A DNA stretch of 64,000 nucleotides from Omphiscola glabra (lineage: Eukaryota; Mollusca; Gastropoda; Lymnaeidae). The first letter of the stretch is position 1, and the number at the start of each line of letters is the position of its first letter. Both the position numbers and the translations under genes were made by a program. The stretch lies in contig OZ024797.1 in NCBI GenBank assembly GCA_964017045.1, positions 18,383,307 through 18,447,306 of the forward strand. Direction: 5' to 3'. The notes under the pieces were generated by a model. That model was not told the origin of the DNA, searched no databases, and saw only the letters and a program-made list of their open reading frames with translations. Shown here piece after piece: positions 26,212-64,000 of the stretch.

Positions 26212-43347
<17,136 letters not shown>

Positions 43348-52945: not shown

Positions 52946-54751
52946 TTTTAAAAATATGGTACATACCTGGTAATAAAAATTCTTACCCTGTCATTTGAAG
53001 TCCATCAAACTGAATATGTTATTATTGTTATCAAAAATTAAAAGGGGATATTTTTTTATTTTACCGATCCTTGCATTTATTCTACAATTCATCTTTGGTA
53101 AGGTAAGTCAAAGTTTAAATTTACTGTTGTAACTTATTCTTCACTGCTCTTTGACTTTATATGTACTGGTATATTACCACTGGTGCATACTATAATATGC
53201 ATTGTTATTAAAATTTTATTTGCATTAGTAAATATATATAAATATAATTAAGTTTAAAAAAAGAAAATAAAACATTGGTGTTTTGGTTGTATTTTGTCAA
53301 TTTTTGTCAGATTACTACTAATGTAACAGGTAACGTAAATTGATGATAAATTATTATATACTGTATGTAATGTAAATGAGATTTATCTTCTGAAGTAATA
53401 TATAGGCTTGCATATAATTATTATATGTATCTACTCTCTTAGAGTTGTGTAATTATTCATGTCAAATACCCTAAATTTTATCAGTTCTCTCTCCTGTTTT
53501 GACAAGTTCACTGAAAAAACCTTCAGAAAATCAATATTTTTCTACTCTACTTTACCGGGTACATGGGTACATTGTATTCAAAAAAGGGATTGTTGCCAAG
53601 AACTGGAGAATATTGAACACCATCGGTTTTATGAACTATGTTGTAAACCCCCACGGAACATACTTTTGTAGAAATATATTTTATTATTTAGTTAATTTAT
53701 TCCTGCATATATATTTCCACCTAATTTATTCTTTTTTTTTTCAGTGTGATATAGTGATACCATCAACTTCCTATACCGGTAGCTGTTTTTAAAGTATTGT
53801 AAGGGTAACCTGAAATGCCATACAGATGTAGACAATGAATGACATTTTCAGAAATCTATGACAGGAGCACCATTTTGTAGGAAGCAAAGTTTGGACCCCT
53901 TCTTTTATGTTTACGCACCCCTTTGCATGCTGTCGAAAGCTTAGTGTGGTATTTAAATGTCAGTTTTTAATTATATACGGAGTATAATACGGTACCTTAC
54001 TTAATATTTTCAGAATATATAAATACAAAAATTGCATTTATTTTAATTATAACTTATATTAAACACTTAACTCCCCAGATCAGTGTCCCAAACCCATGTA
54101 ATAACTTATTAAATAAGTAATAGTGTAGTGGGGGTTGCTGATTTACTACCTTCAGTCATCAAGTCTGATTAATTTCCCGTTTCCATTAGGGAGGGTACTG
54201 TGACATGAATTCAGTAATTTGTATAATTTTTTTTAGCTGGCCATGTGACATACAATGCCTTTAAGTGATAACTGTTCTTCAAGAAAAAATTGGTGGCCTT
54301 TCATCCCACCCATATAAAAAAGTTAAACCCTCTTATTTTCTATTTGCATTCTTATTTAACAAACCTTAGTGATCAGTGTACATGTGCAGAATTAATGAGG
54401 AAATGAAAAATGGAGAGTAAAAAGGGGGAAATTCTCAAAGATGATTGATCCAATTTTATTAAAACCATATTCTCCATTCTGAATTAGGTCAGGTCACTAA
54501 AATTTGGAGGACTGGACAAAAAAAAATAAATTGTGTTGAGGGCAATACCCAAATTTATTTAACCACTGCATGACATGGTAACCAGATATGATGGCAAATT
54601 GTAATCAGCTGATTTGAATAAGATGAGGCTATACAATTTCCCATTAATTTTCTACAACAAATAAATATTACAGGACAAAATTAATTCGAGTTTTCATTAA
54701 ATTACCTATTGAATTGGCAAATAAACATTTAAATCAACTTTTGTTATTTTT
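52946..54751. other. Convergent intergenic region PRKD / eEF1G
   Basis: 3' UTRs of both genes are expected here. Minus-strand AATAAA candidates are near 54,556 and 54,453; the plus-strand one is at 53,266. Confidence 0.5.
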
Positions 54752-54904
54752 TTATTTAAATATTTTTGAATCAGCAACTTCTTTGCCACCAAAGTCTCCA
54801 TCTTGAAGGAAAAATTTCTTCACCAATTCTTTCGTCTCATCACTGTCAGGGTCTAGTTTCTTCCATGAATAGGATTCATAATCAATCATCCAATCTGGAG
54901 AAAG
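54752..54904 (-). CDS. EEF1G: eEF1G last coding exon
   Basis: Encodes LSPDWMIDYESYSWKKLDPD and ends ADSKIFK with a TAA stop. The acceptor is tattcacag. The nearest snoRNA copy ends 103 nt upstream of this acceptor. Confidence 0.96.
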   Translation of the reverse strand, partial: LSPDWMIDYESYSWKKLDPDSDETKELVKKFFLQDGDFGGKEVADSKIFK

Positions 54905-57900
54905 CTGTGAATACAATTTAAAAAATTTGATCATTATAAAATCAATATGATTGTATTTAGCTGAAAATAACAATCGGATAACAATTATAACTATGTCTAA
55001 ACAGTAATTCAAGCTCAGGACGGCGAGTGGTTGTTTTTTCATTCACATCAAATTCCACTTTGTCATCATAGCTGGAAAAACTTCTAACACAAAAACTTTT
55101 TAAAATTTCTTTTATAATAAAAGCAGGATGCCAGAAGTAGCTTCACCTTCACAAAAAGAATCTTTATAATGGTCAGGGAAAATCACAGCAGGGATAAACA
55201 AAATGACCTTTCCATGTAGTATCATTACTCAGAGAAATGATCAACTATGTAACATGTCAAACTTTTAACTTGAATTCAGGAGGACAATTTTCAACAAGAG
55301 AGATAAAAAGGTTAGATGTTAACCAACTTTCTCTATGCCTTTTACTGAGGTACCCAGTAGGTGAGAAATGTATTTTATTTCTCTCATTATCCAGTTATTT
55401 TATAAATTGCCTTTGTATATAAAAAACATAACCAAAAAAAACTAACTCATTTCTATTAAATATGTGTACATATAAATATTGCACAGTCTGGCTTTAAAAA
55501 AAAACAATCACCACTTTCAGGCCCTTAAATTTTCTTTGAGATCACAATTTAACAGGTTATGTCTAAACAGTAATTCAAGCTCAGTACGGCGAGTGGTTGT
55601 TATTTCATTCACATCATATTCCACTTTGTCATCATAGCTGGAAAAACTGCTAAAAACACAAATTTCATTCAAAAAATCTTAAAATTAAGCGCATGCCACC
55701 AGTAACTAGAGAAAAAAAAAGAGCCTTTATAATAGACAGGAAAAAATATTAAACATTTGGATGTGGGGAAGGAAGTGACATTTCCATACTATAGATGTAC
55801 TCAAAGAAAGGATAAACTCTGTTATTTCATCCACATCATATTCCACTTTGTCATCATAGCTGGAAAAACTGCTAAAAACAAAGACTTCTTTTTAAAATTT
55901 CCTTAGCAGGAATCCACAAGTAACTTCACAAAAGAACTTTTATAGTAGACAGGAAATATCTTAATAAAAGATTAAGATGTTAACCACTCTGTTTTTCTCT
56001 ATAAAATGCCTTTGTACATAAAATAATTAACCAAAAAAATTATATTTCTATAAATAATTTGTACAAAACCATTGGAGAGTTCTTTCAGTTAGGTTTTCTA
56101 AGAAAAAACATTAAAAAAAATACGGTCACCTGATTCAAGCCTGATTATTTTGTTGAAAATATTACCATTGAATTTTTAGGATAACAAAAACTAAAAATAT
56201 TTTATATCCCAACAGTAATTCAAGCTCAGTACGGCGAGTGGTTGTTATTTCATCCACATCATATTCCACTTTGTCTTCATAGCTGGAAAAACTGCTAAAA
56301 TCAAAAACTTTTTAAAATTTCCTTTATAATAAAAGCAGGATGCCACAAGTAACTTCACAAAAAAAATCTTATTAAAAAAACAGCAGGGACAAAAAATATG
56401 ACTTTTCCATGTAATAGCATTACTCACTTTGTAGCATGACAAACTTTTAAATTGAATTCGGAAGGACAATTTTCAACAAAAGATGGCTAAAAGGATTAGA
56501 TGTTAACCACTGTTGTCCATAAAATGCCTTTTCAAATAAAAACACTTCATCAAAACAAAACAAAAATATTTCTATAAATAATTTGTAAGAACCAATAGAG
56601 AGAGTTCATTCACCTGATTCAAGCCTGATTATTTGATTGAAAATCTTACCATGAATATTTTGAATAAATAAAAACTAAAAATACTTTTTTCCTAACAGTA
56701 ATTCAAGCTCAGTACGGCGAGTGGTTGTTATTTCATAAAAATCATATTCCACTTTGTCATCACAGCTGGAAAAACTGCTAAATACATTTTCACAAAAAAA
56801 AAGAACCTTTATAATAGACAAGAAAAATCTAAACAAAATAAAAGCGAGGACAAAATATATCACTTGCATGTAATAGCATTAGTCAAAGAAATCAACATTA
56901 CAGTTTGTCAAACAACCTGATTTGAGCCTAATTGAAAATCTTCAAGTACACTTAAACTTCTTTGGATAACAGAACCAAAATTTTAAAAATATGTCTACAA
57001 AAGTAATTCAAGCTCAGTACGGCGAGTGGTTGTTATTTCATTCACATCATATTCCACTTTGTCATCATAGCTGGAAAAACTCATTAAAACAAAAATTTCA
57101 TTCCCATAATCTTCAGAATATTAAGGGCTTGCCACTAGTAACTACAAGACACACAAAAAATTGACAAGAAAAAATTACTTAACATTTGGGGTTGGGGGGG
57201 GGGGGGGGGTGCGTTACATTTCCATATTATAGATGTACTCAAAGAAAGGATAAACTTTGTAGCATTTTAAACTATGAAAAGAAAAAAAAAAGGGCTAAAC
57301 ATAGATTTTGAAAGCAGTCCTCTATGCCCAGGAATTATTGCATTTTTCGATAAAAGACTTTTTTAACAAACAAAAAAACATTTTTCTAGTAATAATTTGT
57401 AAATAATCATTGGATTGAGTTATTGCAGTTATGATTTTAAAATCAGAACATAGATAAGCGTCTCCCAATTCAATCAAGTCTGATTATTTGGTTGATAACT
57501 TTACCTTTACTTCTTTGGATAGCAACTAAAATGAAAAAAATACTAATGTTATAACAGTATTTCAAGCTCAGTACGGCGAGTGGTTGTTATTTCATAAAAA
57601 TCATATTCCACTTTGTCATCACAGCTGGAAAAACTGCTAAATACATTTTCACAAAAAAAAAGAACCTTTATAATAGACAAGAAAAATCTAAACAAAATAA
57701 AAGCGAGGACAAAATATATCACTTGCATGTAATAGCATTAGTCAAAGAAATCAACATTACAGTTTGTCAAACAACCTGATTTGAGCCTAATTGAAAATCT
57801 TCAAGTACACTTAAACTTCTTTGGATAACAGAACCAAAATTTTAAAAATATGTCTACAAAAGTAATTCAAGCTCAGTACGGCGAGTGGTTGTTATTTCAT

Positions 57901-60900
57901 TCACATCATATTCCACTTTGTCATCATAGCTGGAAAAACTCATTAAAACAAAAATTTCATTCCCATAATCTTCAGAATATTAAGGGCATGCCACTAGTAA
58001 CTACAAGACACACAAAAAATTGACAAGAAAAAATTACTTAACATTTGGGGTTGGGGGGGGGGGGGGGGGTGCGTTACATTTCCATATTATAGATGTACTC
58101 AAAGAAAGGATAAACTTTGTAGCATTTTAAACTATGAAAAGAAAAAAAAAAGGGCTAAACATAGATTTTGAAAGCAGTCCTCTATGCCCAGGAATTATTG
58201 CATTTTTCGATAAAAGACTTTTTTAACAAACAAAAAAACATTTTTCTAGTAATAATTTGTAAATAATCATTGGATTGAGTTATTGCAGTTATGATTTTAA
58301 AATCAGAACATAGATAAGCGTCTCCCAATTCAATCAAGTCTGATTATTTGGTTGATAACTTTACCTTTACTTCTTTGGATAGCAACTAAAATGAAAAAAA
58401 TACTAATGTTATAACAGTATTTCAAGCTCAGTACGGCGAGTGGTTCTTATTTCATAAAAATCATATTCCACTTTGTCATCACAGCTGTAAAAACTGCTAA
58501 ATACAATTTCACCAAAAAAAAAGAACCTTTATAATAGACAAGAAAAAATCTAAACAAAATAAAAGCGGGGACAAAAAATATCACTTGCATGTAATAGCAT
58601 TAGTCAAAGAAATCAACATTACAGTTTGTCAAACATCCTGATTCGAGCCTAATTGAAAATCTTCAAGTACACTTAAACTTCTTTGGATAACAGAACCAAA
58701 ATTTTAAAAATATGTCTACAAAAGTAATTCAAGCTCAGTACGGCGAGTGGTTGTTATTTCATTCACATCATATTCCACTTTGTCATCATAGCTGGAAAAA
58801 CTCATTAAAACAAAAATTTCATTCCCATAATCTTCAGAATATTAAGGGCATGCCACTAGTAACTACAAGACACACAAAAAATTGACAAGAAAAAATTACT
58901 TAACATTTGGGGTTGGGGTTGGGGGGGGGTGCGCGTTACATTTCCATATTATAGATGTACTCAAAGAAAGGATAAACTTTGTAGCATTTTAAACTATGAA
59001 AAGAAAATAAAAAGGGCTAAAAATGTCAGATTTTAACAGCAGTTCTCTATGCCCAGGAATTATTGCATTTTTTGATAAAAGACTTTTTCAACAAACAAAA
59101 ACATATTTTTCTAGGAACAATTTGTAAATAATCATTGCATTGAGCTATTGCACAGTTAGGATTTTAAAATCAGAACATAGAAAAGAGTCACCCAATTCAA
59201 TCAAGTCTGATTATTTGATTGATAACTGTACCTTTACTTCTTTGGATAGCAACTAAAATAAAAAAAAAATACTAATATTATACAGTATTTCAAGCTCAGT
59301 ACGGCGAGTGGTTGTTATTTCATAAAAATCATATTCCACTTTGTCATCACAGCTGGAAAAGCTGCTAAATACATTTTCACAAAAAAAAGAACCTTTATAA
59401 TAGACAAGAAAAATCTAAACAAAATAAAAGCGGGGACAAAAAATATCACTTGCATGTAATAGCATTAGTCAAAGAAATCAACATTACAGTATGTCAAACT
59501 TTTAAATTGAAATGGGATGGAAAATTTTCAACAAAAGAGAGCTAAATAGATTCGAATTTAACAGTAGTTCTGAATGTCAAGTATCTTTCATTGCCATAAC
59601 ATCCTACTTTTTTATCACAAAGAAACTGAAATCTTAATTTTAAATAAAATAGAAATAGCCTCCGGACATGAAACACTTGATCCAAAAAATGTACAAAATT
59701 CCATATATATTTTGTACACAACGATTGGACAGTTCTGTACAAGACAAAACATAGAAAACATTAACCTGGTTCAAGCCTAATTGAAATCTTCAAGAACACT
59801 TAAACTTTTTTGGATAACAGACCACAATTTTAAAAATATGTCTACAAAAGTAATTCAAGCTCAGTACGGCGAGTGGTTGTTATTTCATTCACTTCATATT
59901 CCACTTTGTCATCATAGCTGGAAAAACTGCTTAGAACAAAAATTTCATTCCCATAATTTTCAGAATGTTAAGGGCATGCCACTAGTAACTACAAGACACA
60001 CAAAAAATTGACAAGAGAAAATACTTAACATTTGGGGTTGGGGGAGGGCGTTACATTTCCATATTGTAGATGTACTCAAAGAATAGATAAACTTTGCAGC
60101 ATATTAAAATTTAAAAAAAAAAAAGGGCTAATCATAGATTTTGAAAGCAGTCCTCTATGCCCAGGAATTATTGCATTTTTCGATAAAAGACTTTTTCAAC
60201 AAACAAAAAAACATTTTTCTAGTAATAATTTGTAAATAATCATTGGATTGAGTTATTGCACAGTTATGATTTTAAAATCAGAACATAGAAAAGCGTCTCC
60301 CAATTCAATCAAGTCTGATTATTTGGTTGATAACTTTACCTTTACTTCTTTGGATAGCAACTAAAATTAAAAAAATACTAATGTTATAACAGTATTTCAA
60401 GCTCAGTACGGCGAGTGGTTGTTATTTCATTCAAGTCATATTCCACTTTGTCATCATAGCTGGAAAAACTGCTAAATACATTTTCACAAAAAGAACCTTT
60501 ATAATAGACAGGAAAAAATCTTAACAAAATAACAGCGGGGACAAAAAATATCACTTGCATGTAATAGCATTAGTCAAAGAAATCAAGATTACAGTTTGTC
60601 AAACTTTGAAATTGAAATGGGATGGAAAATTTTCAACAAAAGAGAGCTAAATAGATTCGAATTTAACAGTAGTTCTGAATCTCAAGTATCTTTCATTGCC
60701 ATAACATCCCACTTTTTTTATCACAAAGACACTGAAATCATAATTTTAAATAAAATAGAAATAGCCTCCGGACATGAAACACTTGATCCAAAAAATGTAC
60801 AAAATTCCATATATATTTTGTACACGATTGGATAGTTCTGTTCTTCAAGACAAAACATAGAAAACATTTACCTGGTTCGAGCCTAATTGAAAATCTTCAA

Positions 60901-62821
60901 GTACACTTAAACTTCTTTGGATAACAGAACCAAAATTTTAAAAATATGTCTACAACAGTAATTCAAGCTCAGTACGGCGAGTGGTTGTTATTTCATTCAC
61001 ATCATATTCCACTTTGTCATCATAGCTGGAAAAACTGATTAAAACCATTTTCAAATACATTTTCATAAAAAAAGTATTGCCAACACTAACTTAAAAGTTG
61101 TTATTAAGGACAGAACATATCACACCCACGTCAAGCTTCATATTTGCATAAAAATCTTTAAGGATACAAACACAAAAAATTGCTAGTATTGACATCCACT
61201 TTAACAAAGACAACTTAAAGCTATGAAAAGAAAGAAATAAGTGGTACTACAGGAACGGTAAATAAGCCAATTTTCTCCCATTGTATTATACCAATTTTTA
61301 TAATTATACTATCTAAAATAGCTTTTACTTACAGTGAAGGCAAGGTTAGGGGACCTCCAGAACCACAACCCAGCAATGGAGTTCTTCCTAGATTCACCTA
61401 ATATAACCATGCTACCAAAAGCATTTTTCCTGAATTTATCCAACCTCTGGAACATACCTATAAAGAAATCAATTACGAGATGTGCTTTATCTTAAATATA
61501 AAGAACATGAATGTTATGCATTTTCTCTAAATACCATTCAGAAGGAACTTTCCGACATTACTGTTGATGTACAATAAGTTAAATCAATACTCACCCTCCA
61601 CAAGATTGGACACCATGAAGGTCATTTTTCCTTCAAGATTCTCTGTGTATTCACAATACCAGATAGAGTAATTCTCACGATCAAAATTATTCCAAAAGTA
61701 TGGGACAGCTTCAGTAAGGATGTCTTGATTCGAGTAAACTCGCTTGAACTCATCAAGATTCATGGTACTGGAGATTAAATTTCACTTTTTGACTTAAATT
61801 TCCTGATAAACTACAGATTATTTACATATTGTAACATATATCTCAAAAGTCAAATGTTCTTTACATCTTAAAATTAAGAGTAGCCGACCTGGTTACCCAG
61901 ATACTCCAGAAATAGTACAATGCCATCTAAGAATAGTACATTTAGTATTCAAAGCAGACAAACACTTTAACCCACATCTTTTTTGAAATAATTGAATTAC
62001 CCATGTGTTGATGCTGCTAATTTAGTCACTTTTATTGGGATTATAGTACACCAGTACACAAATTTCCAAATAAAAACATGAAAAATCATAACAATCCCGA
62101 TGTGACAGTTTTGTTCAAAAATAAAATAAGTATGCAATAGTGAACGTACCAAATAATATTGAGATACAACATACATGAAATAATATAAATGTTTAACCGT
62201 TTCCTTGCCATTGTTCAGTAAAAAATATTTACAAATTTTAGTACCTCCTCCAAAACATAATTTTAAAAAGTGTGTATGATATCTTTATGAACAGATTTGC
62301 AATTCACAAAGCTGTAACAGGGTTCAATCAGTATATTGTACCTTCCAAAGTTACACACCATCTAAAATAAATATATGGTCTGTCTTTGAAGGAAGGAAAT
62401 GTGAGGCAAGAAAAAAAATACTTTTTAAGACAACACATAAAAATCTAATGCATCATACCCTTTAGGCAAAGCTGCAAATGGATCCTTGGATTCCGATTTT
62501 GGTTCTTCATCCTCTTCTTCAGCTGCTGGCTGAGGCTGAAATAAAATCGTTTGATATTGATAGCACTTCATTAATATTTTGGATCCCACAATGAACTACA
62601 TTTGGCCTACATGAAAACAGCTCTTTAAAAAACCTGTTAGAAGTAGAAGCAAATTGTTTTTAAGTATAGCCCTATATAAATTTTAAGTTAAGCTACCTTA
62701 GGAGCTGCTTTTTCCTTCTTAGGCTGTTGAGGTTGGGCTGTCTTTTTTTCTTTCTTTTTGCTGTCACCACCCCCAACATTAGCAGGAGCAGAGCCTCCAT
62801 GAAGCTCCTGATACTTTTTAG
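54752..62821 (-). CDS. EEF1G: Elongation factor 1 gamma (eEF1G), C-terminal part
   Basis: eEF1G is the scaffold subunit of the eEF1B guanine-nucleotide exchange complex that reloads eEF1A with GTP. Exons in coding order on the minus strand: 62821-62697, 62535-62459, 61767-61595, 61457-61333, 54904-54752. All junctions are GT-AG and phases agree. The visible part is about 217 residues: a Lys/Pro/Gln-rich linker, the DPFAALPKG motif, then the conserved EF1G C-terminal domain (LDEFKRVYSN, PYFWNNFDREN, MFQRLDKFRKNAFGS, WMIDYESYSWKKLDP) ending SKIFK. The N-terminal GST-like domain lies beyond 64,000. The last intron is 6.4 kb and carries the snoRNA array. The gene is convergent with PRKD. Confidence 0.95.
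55008..55077 (-). ncRNA. Box C/D snoRNA-like copy 13 (nearest the acceptor)
   Basis: 70 nt with C box TATGATGA and D box CTGA. The base before the D box is C instead of A, but the 10-nt guide is unchanged. It ends 103 nt before the last eEF1G exon, near the distance usually favourable for splicing-coupled snoRNA assembly. Confidence 0.8.
55574..55643 (-). ncRNA. Box C/D snoRNA-like copy 12
   Basis: 70 nt with all boxes, stems and guide intact. Confidence 0.78.
55821..55865 (-). pseudogene. Truncated snoRNA-like copy
   Basis: Only the C-box half (stem TTCCAGC, TATGATGA and middle) remains. The guide, D box and 3' stem are missing, so it cannot form a C/D particle. Confidence 0.7.
56219..56288 (-). 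ncRNA. Box C/D snoRNA-like copy 11, mutated C box
   Basis: 70 nt with guide, D box and stems intact, but the C box reads TATGAAGA, breaking the core TGATGA needed for the kink-turn. It is possibly non-functional. Confidence 0.55.
56702..56771 (-). ncRNA. Box C/D snoRNA-like copy 10 (G-type C box)
   Basis: 70 nt with C box TGTGATGA, and intact guide, D box and stems. Confidence 0.77.
57007..57076 (-). ncRNA. Box C/D snoRNA-like copy 9
   Basis: 70 nt with all elements intact. It is 305 nt from copy 10, the same spacing as the pairs 57,561/57,866 and 58,421/58,728. Confidence 0.78.
57561..57630 (-). ncRNA. Box C/D snoRNA-like copy 8 (G-type C box)
   Basis: 70 nt with C box TGTGATGA, the A/T-rich middle variant, and intact guide, D box and stems. 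Confidence 0.77.
57866..57935 (-). ncRNA. Box C/D snoRNA-like copy 7
   Basis: 70 nt with all elements intact. It is part of an ~860-bp unit nearly identical to its neighbour. Confidence 0.78.
58421..58490 (-). ncRNA. Box C/D snoRNA-like copy 6, weakened stem
   Basis: 70 nt with C box TGTGATGA, guide and D box intact. The 5' stem is TTACAGC instead of TTCCAGC, which removes one stem pair, and one base just upstream of the 10-nt guide also differs. It may be less well processed. Confidence 0.65.
58728..58797 (-). ncRNA. Box C/D snoRNA-like copy 5
   Basis: 70 nt, identical in boxes, guide and stems to copies at 57,866 and 57,007. Confidence 0.78.
59289..59358 (-). ncRNA. Box C/D snoRNA-like copy 4 (G-type C box)
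   Basis: 70 nt with C box TGTGATGA, which uses the other permitted R base. D box, guide and stems are intact. The middle carries the A/T-rich variant (cataaaaatcat on the plus strand). Confidence 0.77.
59854..59923 (-). ncRNA. Box C/D snoRNA-like copy 3
   Basis: 70 nt with all boxes, stems and guide intact. One substitution lies in the non-guide middle. Confidence 0.78.
60396..60465 (-). ncRNA. Box C/D snoRNA-like copy 2
   Basis: 70 nt with C box TATGATGA, guide CACTCGCCGT, D box CTGA and both stems intact. A small change lies only in the middle, between C box and guide. Confidence 0.78.
60962..61031 (-). ncRNA. Box C/D snoRNA-like copy 1 (first in host order)
   Basis: A 70-nt unit: 5' stem TTCCAGC, C box TATGATGA, guide CACTCGCCGT, D box CTGA, 3' stem GCTTGAA. 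The stems pair with one internal mismatch. It is in the same orientation as eEF1G and lies 302 nt inside the intron. The guide complements the conserved 28S segment ACGGCGAGUG; by the D+5 rule the second G of ACGG would be 2'-O-methylated (inference). Confidence 0.8.
61333..61457 (-). CDS. EEF1G: eEF1G exon, C-terminal domain part 2
   Basis: Encodes MFQRLDKFRKNAFGSMVILG, then SIAGLWFWRSPNLAFT. The donor ACT/gtaagt opens the 6.4-kb intron that holds the snoRNA array. Confidence 0.96.
61595..61767 (-). CDS. EEF1G: eEF1G exon, C-terminal domain part 1
   Basis: Encodes TMNLDEFKRVYSNQDILTEA, then PYFWNNFDRENYSIWYCEY and MTFMVSNLVEG, closely matching the EF1G C-terminal domain. Confidence 0.96.
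62459..62535 (-). CDS. EEF1G: eEF1G exon, acidic linker
   Basis: Encodes PQPAAEEEDEEPKSESK, then DPFAALPK, the conserved entry to the C-terminal domain. It starts in phase 0 and ends in phase 2. Confidence 0.93.
62697..62821 (-). CDS. EEF1G: eEF1G exon, charged linker
   Basis: Encodes KKYQELHGGSAPANVGGGD, then a Lys-rich stretch (SKKKEKKTAQPQQPKK). This is the low-complexity linker between the GST-like and C-terminal domains. Acceptor is tttatacag, donor AAG/gtagct. Confidence 0.85.
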
Positions 62822-62886
62822 CTGTATAAAAATTGTAGTTTTTTTTTAGAAGGTCATGATTTCTAAAATGGCATCTTTATCTAGGG

Positions 62887-63073
62887 CAGCAGTTCTCAAC
62901 CTGTGGGTCACGACCCCTTTGGGGGTCGATTGACCCTTTTCCAGGGGTTGCCCGAGACCATCTGAAAACACATATACTCTACAGTTATGAAATAGCAATG
63001 AAAAAAATTTTGTGGTTGGGAGGTGGCCACAACATGAGGAACTGTATTAAAGGGTGAAGGTTGAGAACCACTG
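62887..63073. mobile_element. SPIN-like nonautonomous hAT, exact 8-bp TSD
   Basis: 187 bp starting CAGCAGTTCTCAACCTGTGG and ending GGTTGAGAACCACTG. A perfect 8-bp duplication ATCTAGGG flanks it (62879-62886, 63074-63081). Opposite orientation to the copy at 12,948. It lies in the eEF1G intron upstream of 62,821. Confidence 0.8.
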
Positions 63074-63361
63074 ATCTAGGGAACAAACTGGTAGACATTT
63101 TCACCAGGTACTGAGTATTTTGGCACTATTTGCCAAATCCGGGTAACAATCCGAGTACTATTTGGTAAATATACATCCACTTTCACTAGTAAATTATTTA
63201 TTCTTGTTATTTCAGTTAATTTAATTAATTGATTAGTAGAGTAATGCATTTTTAATCGTAATTTAATATTACTTTACTTTTATATCTTGAATTCATGATT
63301 TACATTTGAGAACTTCGGAGAGATGTAGGTAACAAATGTTACATTAACCGTCTTACAGTAA

Positions 63362-63525
63362 CAGACCTGTTTACTCTTACGATTTTGGCGTACAATGTAC
63401 GATTTTTAGGTGTATACATTATATAAATTGTATCTATTATATGTTTTTTTACTATTAAGGTAATGTAATGAATGATTTTGTGATGATATTGTACGATTTT
63501 AAGAGTTTGAGAGTAAACAGGTCTG
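63362..63525. mobile_element. CAGACCTG MITE copy 4
   Basis: 164 bp upstream of the eEF1G exon at 62,821. It has a perfect 6-bp duplication CAGTAA on both sides. Confidence 0.85.
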
Positions 63526-64000
63526 CAGTAAAGTGTTCAACTTAAATTATAAAATTAAACTATCCATTAAGTATAAATAATATAATGAAACTTATTTATC
63601 CACATAGCGCATAGAGTTAAAAACCCCTTCTATCCACATTTTGGTGAAAATAAAACTTAAAAGTGGGTAAACTCAATAACTTTGTCAAGGCTGTTAAATA
63701 CAAGAATCTGTATTACTATAGCTAGCATAATTAAAAGATGAATCATCTTTATTTGCTATCAAAGTCTATTTTTTTACAAAGCTATAAATCTATGTAAATA
63801 ATACATTTCGTTCTTCAGCTATTTTCACATTTAAAAGTTGATATATTAATTTAGGAAGAATGTAAAAAGGAGTGTGAAACTACGGAGAGAATCCATCAAT
63901 CCCTGTGGCGCTACAGCCCATGTAGGGCTTTGGCCTGCCTCAACACTTACTTTCACCGAGACCTTATCTTTTCCATGCTTGGATTCCCAGATAAAAACAA
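63526..64000. other. eEF1G upstream intron, repeat at edge
   Basis: From about 63,890 the sequence CCCTGTGGCGCTACAGCCCA then TGTAGGGC contains a short hairpin and is GC-richer than its surroundings; probably the end of a SINE or other mobile element cut by the window edge. Confidence 0.35.

Follow-up and report, generated by a model that had tools for sequence, protein, structure and literature searches.

In this work, we observe that the last intron of the eEF1G gene of the gastropod Omphiscola glabra holds a short element built like a box C/D snoRNA, in thirteen full copies and a truncated one. At the level of sequence, the array is confirmed as real and unusual, with thirteen likely C/D snoRNA genes at a single locus. 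Animals predominantly carry one snoRNA per intron, with intronic clusters forming a described category (PMC11028025, in its available text), and contrary to that usual layout the array most likely represents an amplified family of methylation-guide snoRNAs. An earlier note on this stretch of DNA had proposed that a C/D snoRNA cluster was amplified locally within a single eEF1G intron, and this reading is the best fit because it is favored by the boxes, the terminal stem, a 28S guide in the D+5 register, the type and orientation of the host, the confinement to a single locus and the greater conservation of the elements relative to their flanks. We consider it quite probable that the thirteen copies are box C/D methylation-guide snoRNA genes. 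All coordinates below refer to the window, which is the whole 64,000-nt stretch analyzed (contig OZ024797.1, positions 18,383,307 to 18,447,306), unless a different contig is named.

The proposed identity of the host is borne out by protein matches. Five exons, joined by hand, give 217 residues with a match to Pfam EF1G (PF00647, 1.3e-40), and the last three of them (148 residues) match PDB 1pbu, elongation factor 1-gamma. These three lie on the minus strand at 61595..61767 (the exon upstream of the penultimate one), 61333..61457 (penultimate) and 54752..54904 (last, ending in ...DSKIFK and a stop). The host intron on the same strand is a phase 0 intron of the form GTAAGT...AG, and its size and bounds are those claimed earlier, from 61332 (GTAAGT) to 54905 (AG), or 6,428 nt. 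The suggestion that the host is a gastropod is also well supported, as among the best 120 of 195 protein matches the closest is from Candidula unifasciata, a land snail, with 79% identity, followed by Elysia chlorotica with 63%, which makes a heterobranch very likely.

A repeat search gave 14 related sites on the minus strand, and a mismatch scan with a 67-nt core recovered the thirteen elements and the single truncated copy reported earlier, all on the minus strand (that is, in host orientation) and between 55008 and 61028. Mismatches to the core number 0-5 in the full copies and 16 in the truncated one, and the next best site outside the array has 30 on the minus strand and 34 on the plus strand. 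Named in host order from c1 (starting at 61028) to c13 (starting at 55074), the cores on the minus strand occupy 60962..61028 (c1, with its C box starting at 61023 and its D box ending at 60969), 60396..60462 (c2), 59854..59920 (c3), 59289..59355 (c4), 58728..58794 (c5), 58421..58487 (c6), 57866..57932 (c7), 57561..57627 (c8), 57007..57073 (c9), 56702..56768 (c10), 56219..56285 (c11), 55574..55640 (c12) and 55008..55074 (c13). The truncated copy (55820..55867, minus strand; 48 of 72 query bases aligned) sits between c11 and c12 and consists of the 5' half only, without guide or D box. Successive copies from c1 to c13 are spaced by 566, 542, 565, 561, 307, 555, 305, 554, 305, 483, 645 and 566 nt. 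The copy nearest the 3' splice site is c13, with 110 nt from the end of its D box to the last intron base; the other twelve lie 676-6064 nt from that splice site. Copy-specific variants are found, for example GTGATGA...TTTTTATG in a B-type group of copies and ...CCGTCCTGA in c13. Two stretches at 59552-59632 and 60657-60738 score 20.1 and 13.0 bits, within the antisense range (up to 20.7), and are not claimed as decayed extra copies.

When the element was used as a BLAST query against the 744.8-Mb assembly (37 contigs), it returned 14 matches, all in the eEF1G intron, a count that is a lower bound; strongly diverged relatives could be missed by BLAST. The word formed by guide and D box gave 13 matches across the whole assembly, again all in this intron, and a control pattern gave one. 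A mobile element or dispersed family is thus unsupported, given that all 14 genome matches fall inside one intron. As for a simple satellite, Tandem Repeats Finder finds no array, its longest period being 500 nt and units of about 550 nt lying beyond its reach.

The full copies display the hallmarks of box C/D snoRNAs to the extent previously described: the C box reads RTGATGA in twelve of thirteen (GTGATGA in c4, c6, c8 and c10; ATGAAGA in the exception, c11), and the D box CTGA and the adjoining guide CACTCGCCGT are present in every one. A generic C/D scan, which called for a C box, a CTGA 25-110 nt further on and at least six of eight stem pairs with the inner three paired, was run on both strands of the whole window and yielded 13 matches on the minus strand, all in the array, and none on the plus strand. 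These correspond to twelve distinct copies and one longer alternative for c12, with c11 missed. Twenty block shuffles of one strand gave a mean of 0.25 matches under the same scan, and because of this difference, together with the core mismatch scan, a chance repeat is ruled out. By eye, ATGATGT is a possible C' box in most A-type copies and is altered in the B-type, with no clear D' box; a conserved 5' stretch, ACAAAGTGGAAT, is accounted for by neither the boxes nor the guide.

The terminal stem TTCCAGC/GCTTGAA that had been proposed is present, but it contains one mismatch and extends further outward than claimed. It is made of AGC/GCT and TTC/GAA, continued outward by CAGT/ACTG in 7 of the 13 copies and by variants in the rest, so that 9 to 13 pairs, interrupted by small mismatches, can form in all thirteen. 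The cofold energies of the stems are -8.3 to -12.6 kcal/mol, against a mean of -2.2 for 1,500 intron control sites of the same geometry, at most 0.27% of which match the copies in stability; the truncated copy gives -0.9. One whole copy folds better than its shuffles (z -2.31, with 5 of 200 shuffles as good). Covariation in the stem is not above that of shuffles (174/500), and both partners have changed in one pair only, from C-G to G-U, in c5, c7 and c9. In a covariance search of the kind recommended in the earlier note, Rfam gave no match in the window at gathering score, and hence no named snoRNA family; the generic scan picked out the array and nothing else. A laxer Rfam scan of 54700-64000 gave seven matches, none of them on an element in its own strand. 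One copy submitted alone drew ten sub-threshold matches, seven of them to C/D families, the best being sR17 at 15.8 bits against a threshold of 36.

The guide, at its positions D+2 to D+11 (10 nt), is perfectly complementary to ACGGCGAGTG within the 28S segment TCCCTCAGTAACGGCGAGTGAAGCG, which places a 10-bp pairing in the D+5 register with the conserved 28S sequence AACGGCGAGTG, the target being read from a keyhole-limpet primer and not from the host. That 28S primer carries the complement of the guide (PMC5288781, available portion), a flatworm primer carries the same 28S core (PMC3607561, likewise), and the 28S word ACGGCGAGTGAA recurs in the accessible parts of the published literature. 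Duplex energies for the guide range from -26.3 to -29.0, compared to a minimum of -17.2 among 4,804 intron windows, and in 5.7 kb of random rRNA an exact 10-mer at a fixed register would be met 0.005 times on average. The +5 rule for the methylated nucleotide is given in a footnote to Table 1 of PMC8817022. By that rule the predicted methylated nucleotide would be the G that pairs with D+5, which is the second G of AACGGCG (AACGGCGAG), near the 5' end of 28S. This site would lie at about position 92 in yeast 25S numbering. The predicted site is absent from two methylation tables, neither of which covers molluscs: Table 2 of PMC11542601 has 25S sites at 40, 44, 48 and 144 with none between 48 and 144, and the first LSU site in Table 1 of PMC8817022 is Gm711 of Dictyostelium. 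The available part of a Xenopus methylation study (PMC8797249) likewise has no site near it. In searchable literature text CACUCGCCGU was not found, and CACTCGCCGT appeared together with snoRNA only under titles on yeast Nop8p and mouse hippocampus.

In the host assembly, the 28S target word has no match and neither does a distant 28S word, while a neighboring conserved word has a single match, in a 28S fragment that ends before the target. That short fragment lies at an unrelated place (C5:41183500-41192500, at about 2600-2670 therein), breaks off before the target and is unrecognised by Rfam at gathering level. Searches for rRNA in the prokaryote and viral contigs gave no match in either. 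Because the target and distant words are unmatched and the neighboring word meets only a broken fragment, the intact rDNA of the host is most likely unassembled.

Judging from the comparison of its units, the array is the product of spread by tandem duplication. The basic unit is about 542-566 nt (c1, c2, c3, c4, c6, c8 and c12), and two subfamilies alternate, A (c1, c3, c5, c7 and c9) and B (c2, c4, c6, c8 and the 5' side of c10), with the A units c5, c7 and c9 being without about 260 internal nt. The 305-nt units of c7 and c9 do not differ at all, and the dimer c5-c6 differs from c7-c8 in 10 columns of about 860; thus the last growth, as read from the sequence, is by A-B dimers and recent. 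The exact count at c5-c10, where the units are nearly identical, may include assembly error. A change of the central block from GTGAATG to TTTTATG, plus the C box GTGATGA, is shared by c4, c6, c8 and c10; c2 is without most of the block change though its flanks are nearly identical to those of c4, c6 and c8. This pattern is a sign of conversion or of a relaxed central sequence.

Elements are 88-100% identical in all 78 pairs of copies, whereas in many of the same pairs the 130-nt flanks are 23-50% identical (gaps counted), so that either selection or gene conversion keeps the element constant. For a rate comparison, 56 of 156 flank comparisons were alignable by the chosen criteria, and 18 with less than 5% divergence were set aside, which left 38. 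In these, changes amount to 0.262 per flank site and 0.035 per element site. The element is the slower in 35 of the 38 comparisons, with the caveat that pairs overlap and the counts are not independent; in five disjoint pairs, 202 of 566 flank sites and 19 of 335 element sites are changed (Fisher p ~1e-27, sites taken as independent). The three exceptions are comparisons of c2 with B-type copies, in which elements change as fast as or faster than flanks, and several closer B-type comparisons among the 18 set aside also have element change equal to or above that of the flank. Between c2 and c4, c6 and c8 (and for the upstream flank of c10), flanks are 2-6% different and elements are 4-5 changes apart, mostly in the center. 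Within the core, 2 of 32 columns vary in boxes, guide and stem and 8 of 35 elsewhere (p 0.086), a shortage of changes in the former that is only suggestive. The earlier statement that the middle drifts freely is overstated, for those 8 variable columns are far fewer than in the flanks. The related claim of selection on the RNA gains from an element far steadier than most flanks, but gene conversion could mimic such steadiness; taking both into account, selection on the RNA is likely, and conversion could account for part of the conservation.

Several other readings of the array deserve weighing; they are not mutually exclusive, and those that invoke passenger copies, a sno-lncRNA or a chaperone partly overlap the one we favor. 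It is possible, if on balance doubtful, that only one or a few copies make a snoRNA (c13, for example, or those at the ends of the intron) and that the others are passengers, carried in a young tandem repeat whose units stay alike through recent duplication and gene conversion. The identity of c7 with c9, the near identity of c5-c6 with c7-c8, the altered C box of c11 and the truncated copy are in keeping with it, and for a vertebrate snoRNA it is reported that some, or most, of the copies may lack expression (PMC10234308, in its available text). On the other hand, c1, c11, c12 and c13 have elements 93-100% identical among themselves with 130-nt flanks at 27-68% (gaps counted), and C box, D box and guide are all kept in twelve of the thirteen copies. 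It is far less probable that eEF1G uses the repeats as alternative coding or poison exons. The string TTTTTCCAG, which would be their acceptor, stands at the start of the element in 11 of 13 copies (c4 has CTTTTCCAG there, and c6 TTTTTACAG), and every one of the thirteen copies has the same frame free of stops for 21 codons; but that frame is not the host phase, which meets a stop at the second codon, and the changes are 2 synonymous to 10 nonsynonymous where 21% synonymous is expected. Donor-like sites at least as strong as that of the host follow 6 of the 13 copies within 300 nt downstream, against 5.9 expected by chance, which also leaves the earlier idea of cryptic noncoding exons around each copy without support. 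On phase, substitution pattern and donors at chance level we reject coding or poison exons, which would moreover leave the D-box-anchored 28S match unaccounted for.

The two further alternatives accept the snoRNA-like elements and differ on the product or the task. The excised intron might remain uncut, as a sno-lncRNA with snoRNP-capped ends and internal snoRNPs that would act as a scaffold binding fibrillarin and 15.5K or rRNA. Introns with two snoRNAs can yield such RNAs, the core proteins stopping exonucleases (PMC11028025, available text), and here one intron contains not two but, by sequence, thirteen copies from c1 to c13, with donor-like sites between them no commoner than chance. Little besides the elements is conserved between distant copies, however, and we hold this reading to be unlikely. 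No more likely, in our estimation, is a bolder conjecture drawn from the same layout: that the eEF1G intron becomes a multi-kb RNA which bears thirteen snoRNPs and has c1 and c13 as its caps. Such an RNA would be an independently evolved mollusc counterpart of the mammalian snoRNA arrays, would tie the dose of a single rRNA-modifying particle to the output of a translation factor and would methylate a 28S G absent from the tables. Alternatively, instead of guiding methylation, the RNA could act as a chaperone of rRNA folding through a longer duplex in which the D box takes part. If one rRNA A is bulged, complementarity does extend through the D box (ACUGAG) to 16 bp in 12 of 13 copies, and the site is missing from the two methylation tables cited above (no molluscs). 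Yet in c13 the base that precedes the D box is mismatched (C for A), and a D box engaged in such a duplex would be in competition with the C/D kink-turn; a chaperone role thus appears improbable to us.

Returning to thirteen methylation guides as the favored reading, the snoRNAs would be released from the eEF1G pre-mRNA, and the guide would direct fibrillarin to a single conserved guanosine in the 5' end region of 28S, the favored consequence of amplification being a likely rise in the dose of this 28S guide snoRNA. A snoRNP would presumably assemble on each copy via the terminal stem, and would do so without lying, as is usual, close to the branch point; for a few well-studied C/D snoRNAs, the distance to that point has proved important (PMC10234308, available text). 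The inner copies may be freed by endonucleolytic separation or by release that is independent of splicing, and would require cuts between units, as the intron would otherwise persist as a sno-lncRNA. In U74, an extended external stem allows release without splicing (PMC12205218, available text), and like the human U74 stem those of all thirteen copies are prolonged into the flanks; by analogy, they might serve the same purpose.

With respect to known systems, the copies resemble animal intronic C/D guide snoRNAs of the SNORD type in their C and D boxes, terminal stem, guide next to the D box, sense orientation and location in an intron of a translation-related host, and differ from them in that thirteen sit in one intron and no Rfam family is reached at threshold. 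Reportedly, intronic clusters of H/ACA snoRNAs were the title subject of a 2004 report by Huang. Further parallels are SNORD113/114, SNORD115/116 and rat Bsr, in which, as here, a single C/D family has undergone local tandem amplification and shows subfamilies and traces of recombination. SNORD113/114 and 115/116 are eutherian orphan snoRNAs in repeated lncRNA introns at two imprinted loci, with Bsr in rat (PMC11028025, available text). In contrast to these, in which each copy has its own repeated lncRNA intron, the present copies share a single intron, with donor-like sites at chance level; their host, in a mollusc, is a housekeeping gene that codes for a protein, and they have a predicted rRNA target. 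The Drosophila clusters of Uhg1-8, lola, Arpc2 and dom are alike in having several snoRNAs per host gene, and there the snoRNAs that share a host are spread over its different introns (PMC5932544; host list in PMC13228274; both in their available text). No comparable array was recognizable from the titles or opening lines of abstracts in the literature searched. If the guide function is true, the array offers an independent case for asking why one guide RNA is amplified, and it raises the questions of how thirteen snoRNPs are released from one intron and of an unusual 28S methylation in molluscs.

Two further features were seen in the window. On the plus strand, at 31024-43347, there are open reading frame pieces which, by eye, we take to resemble the C1 zinc finger, PH and kinase parts of a protein kinase D-like gene. 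At 62879-63081, in an upstream eEF1G intron, there is a hAT-like MITE with the inverted ends CAGCAGTTCTCAACCT/AGGTTGAGAACCACTG. These ends presumably resemble those of the SPIN family. A hAT element with identity to SPIN has been reported in Biomphalaria (PMC5440852, available text). An 8-bp repeat, ATCTAGGG, read by eye, stands on both sides of the MITE at 62879-63081.
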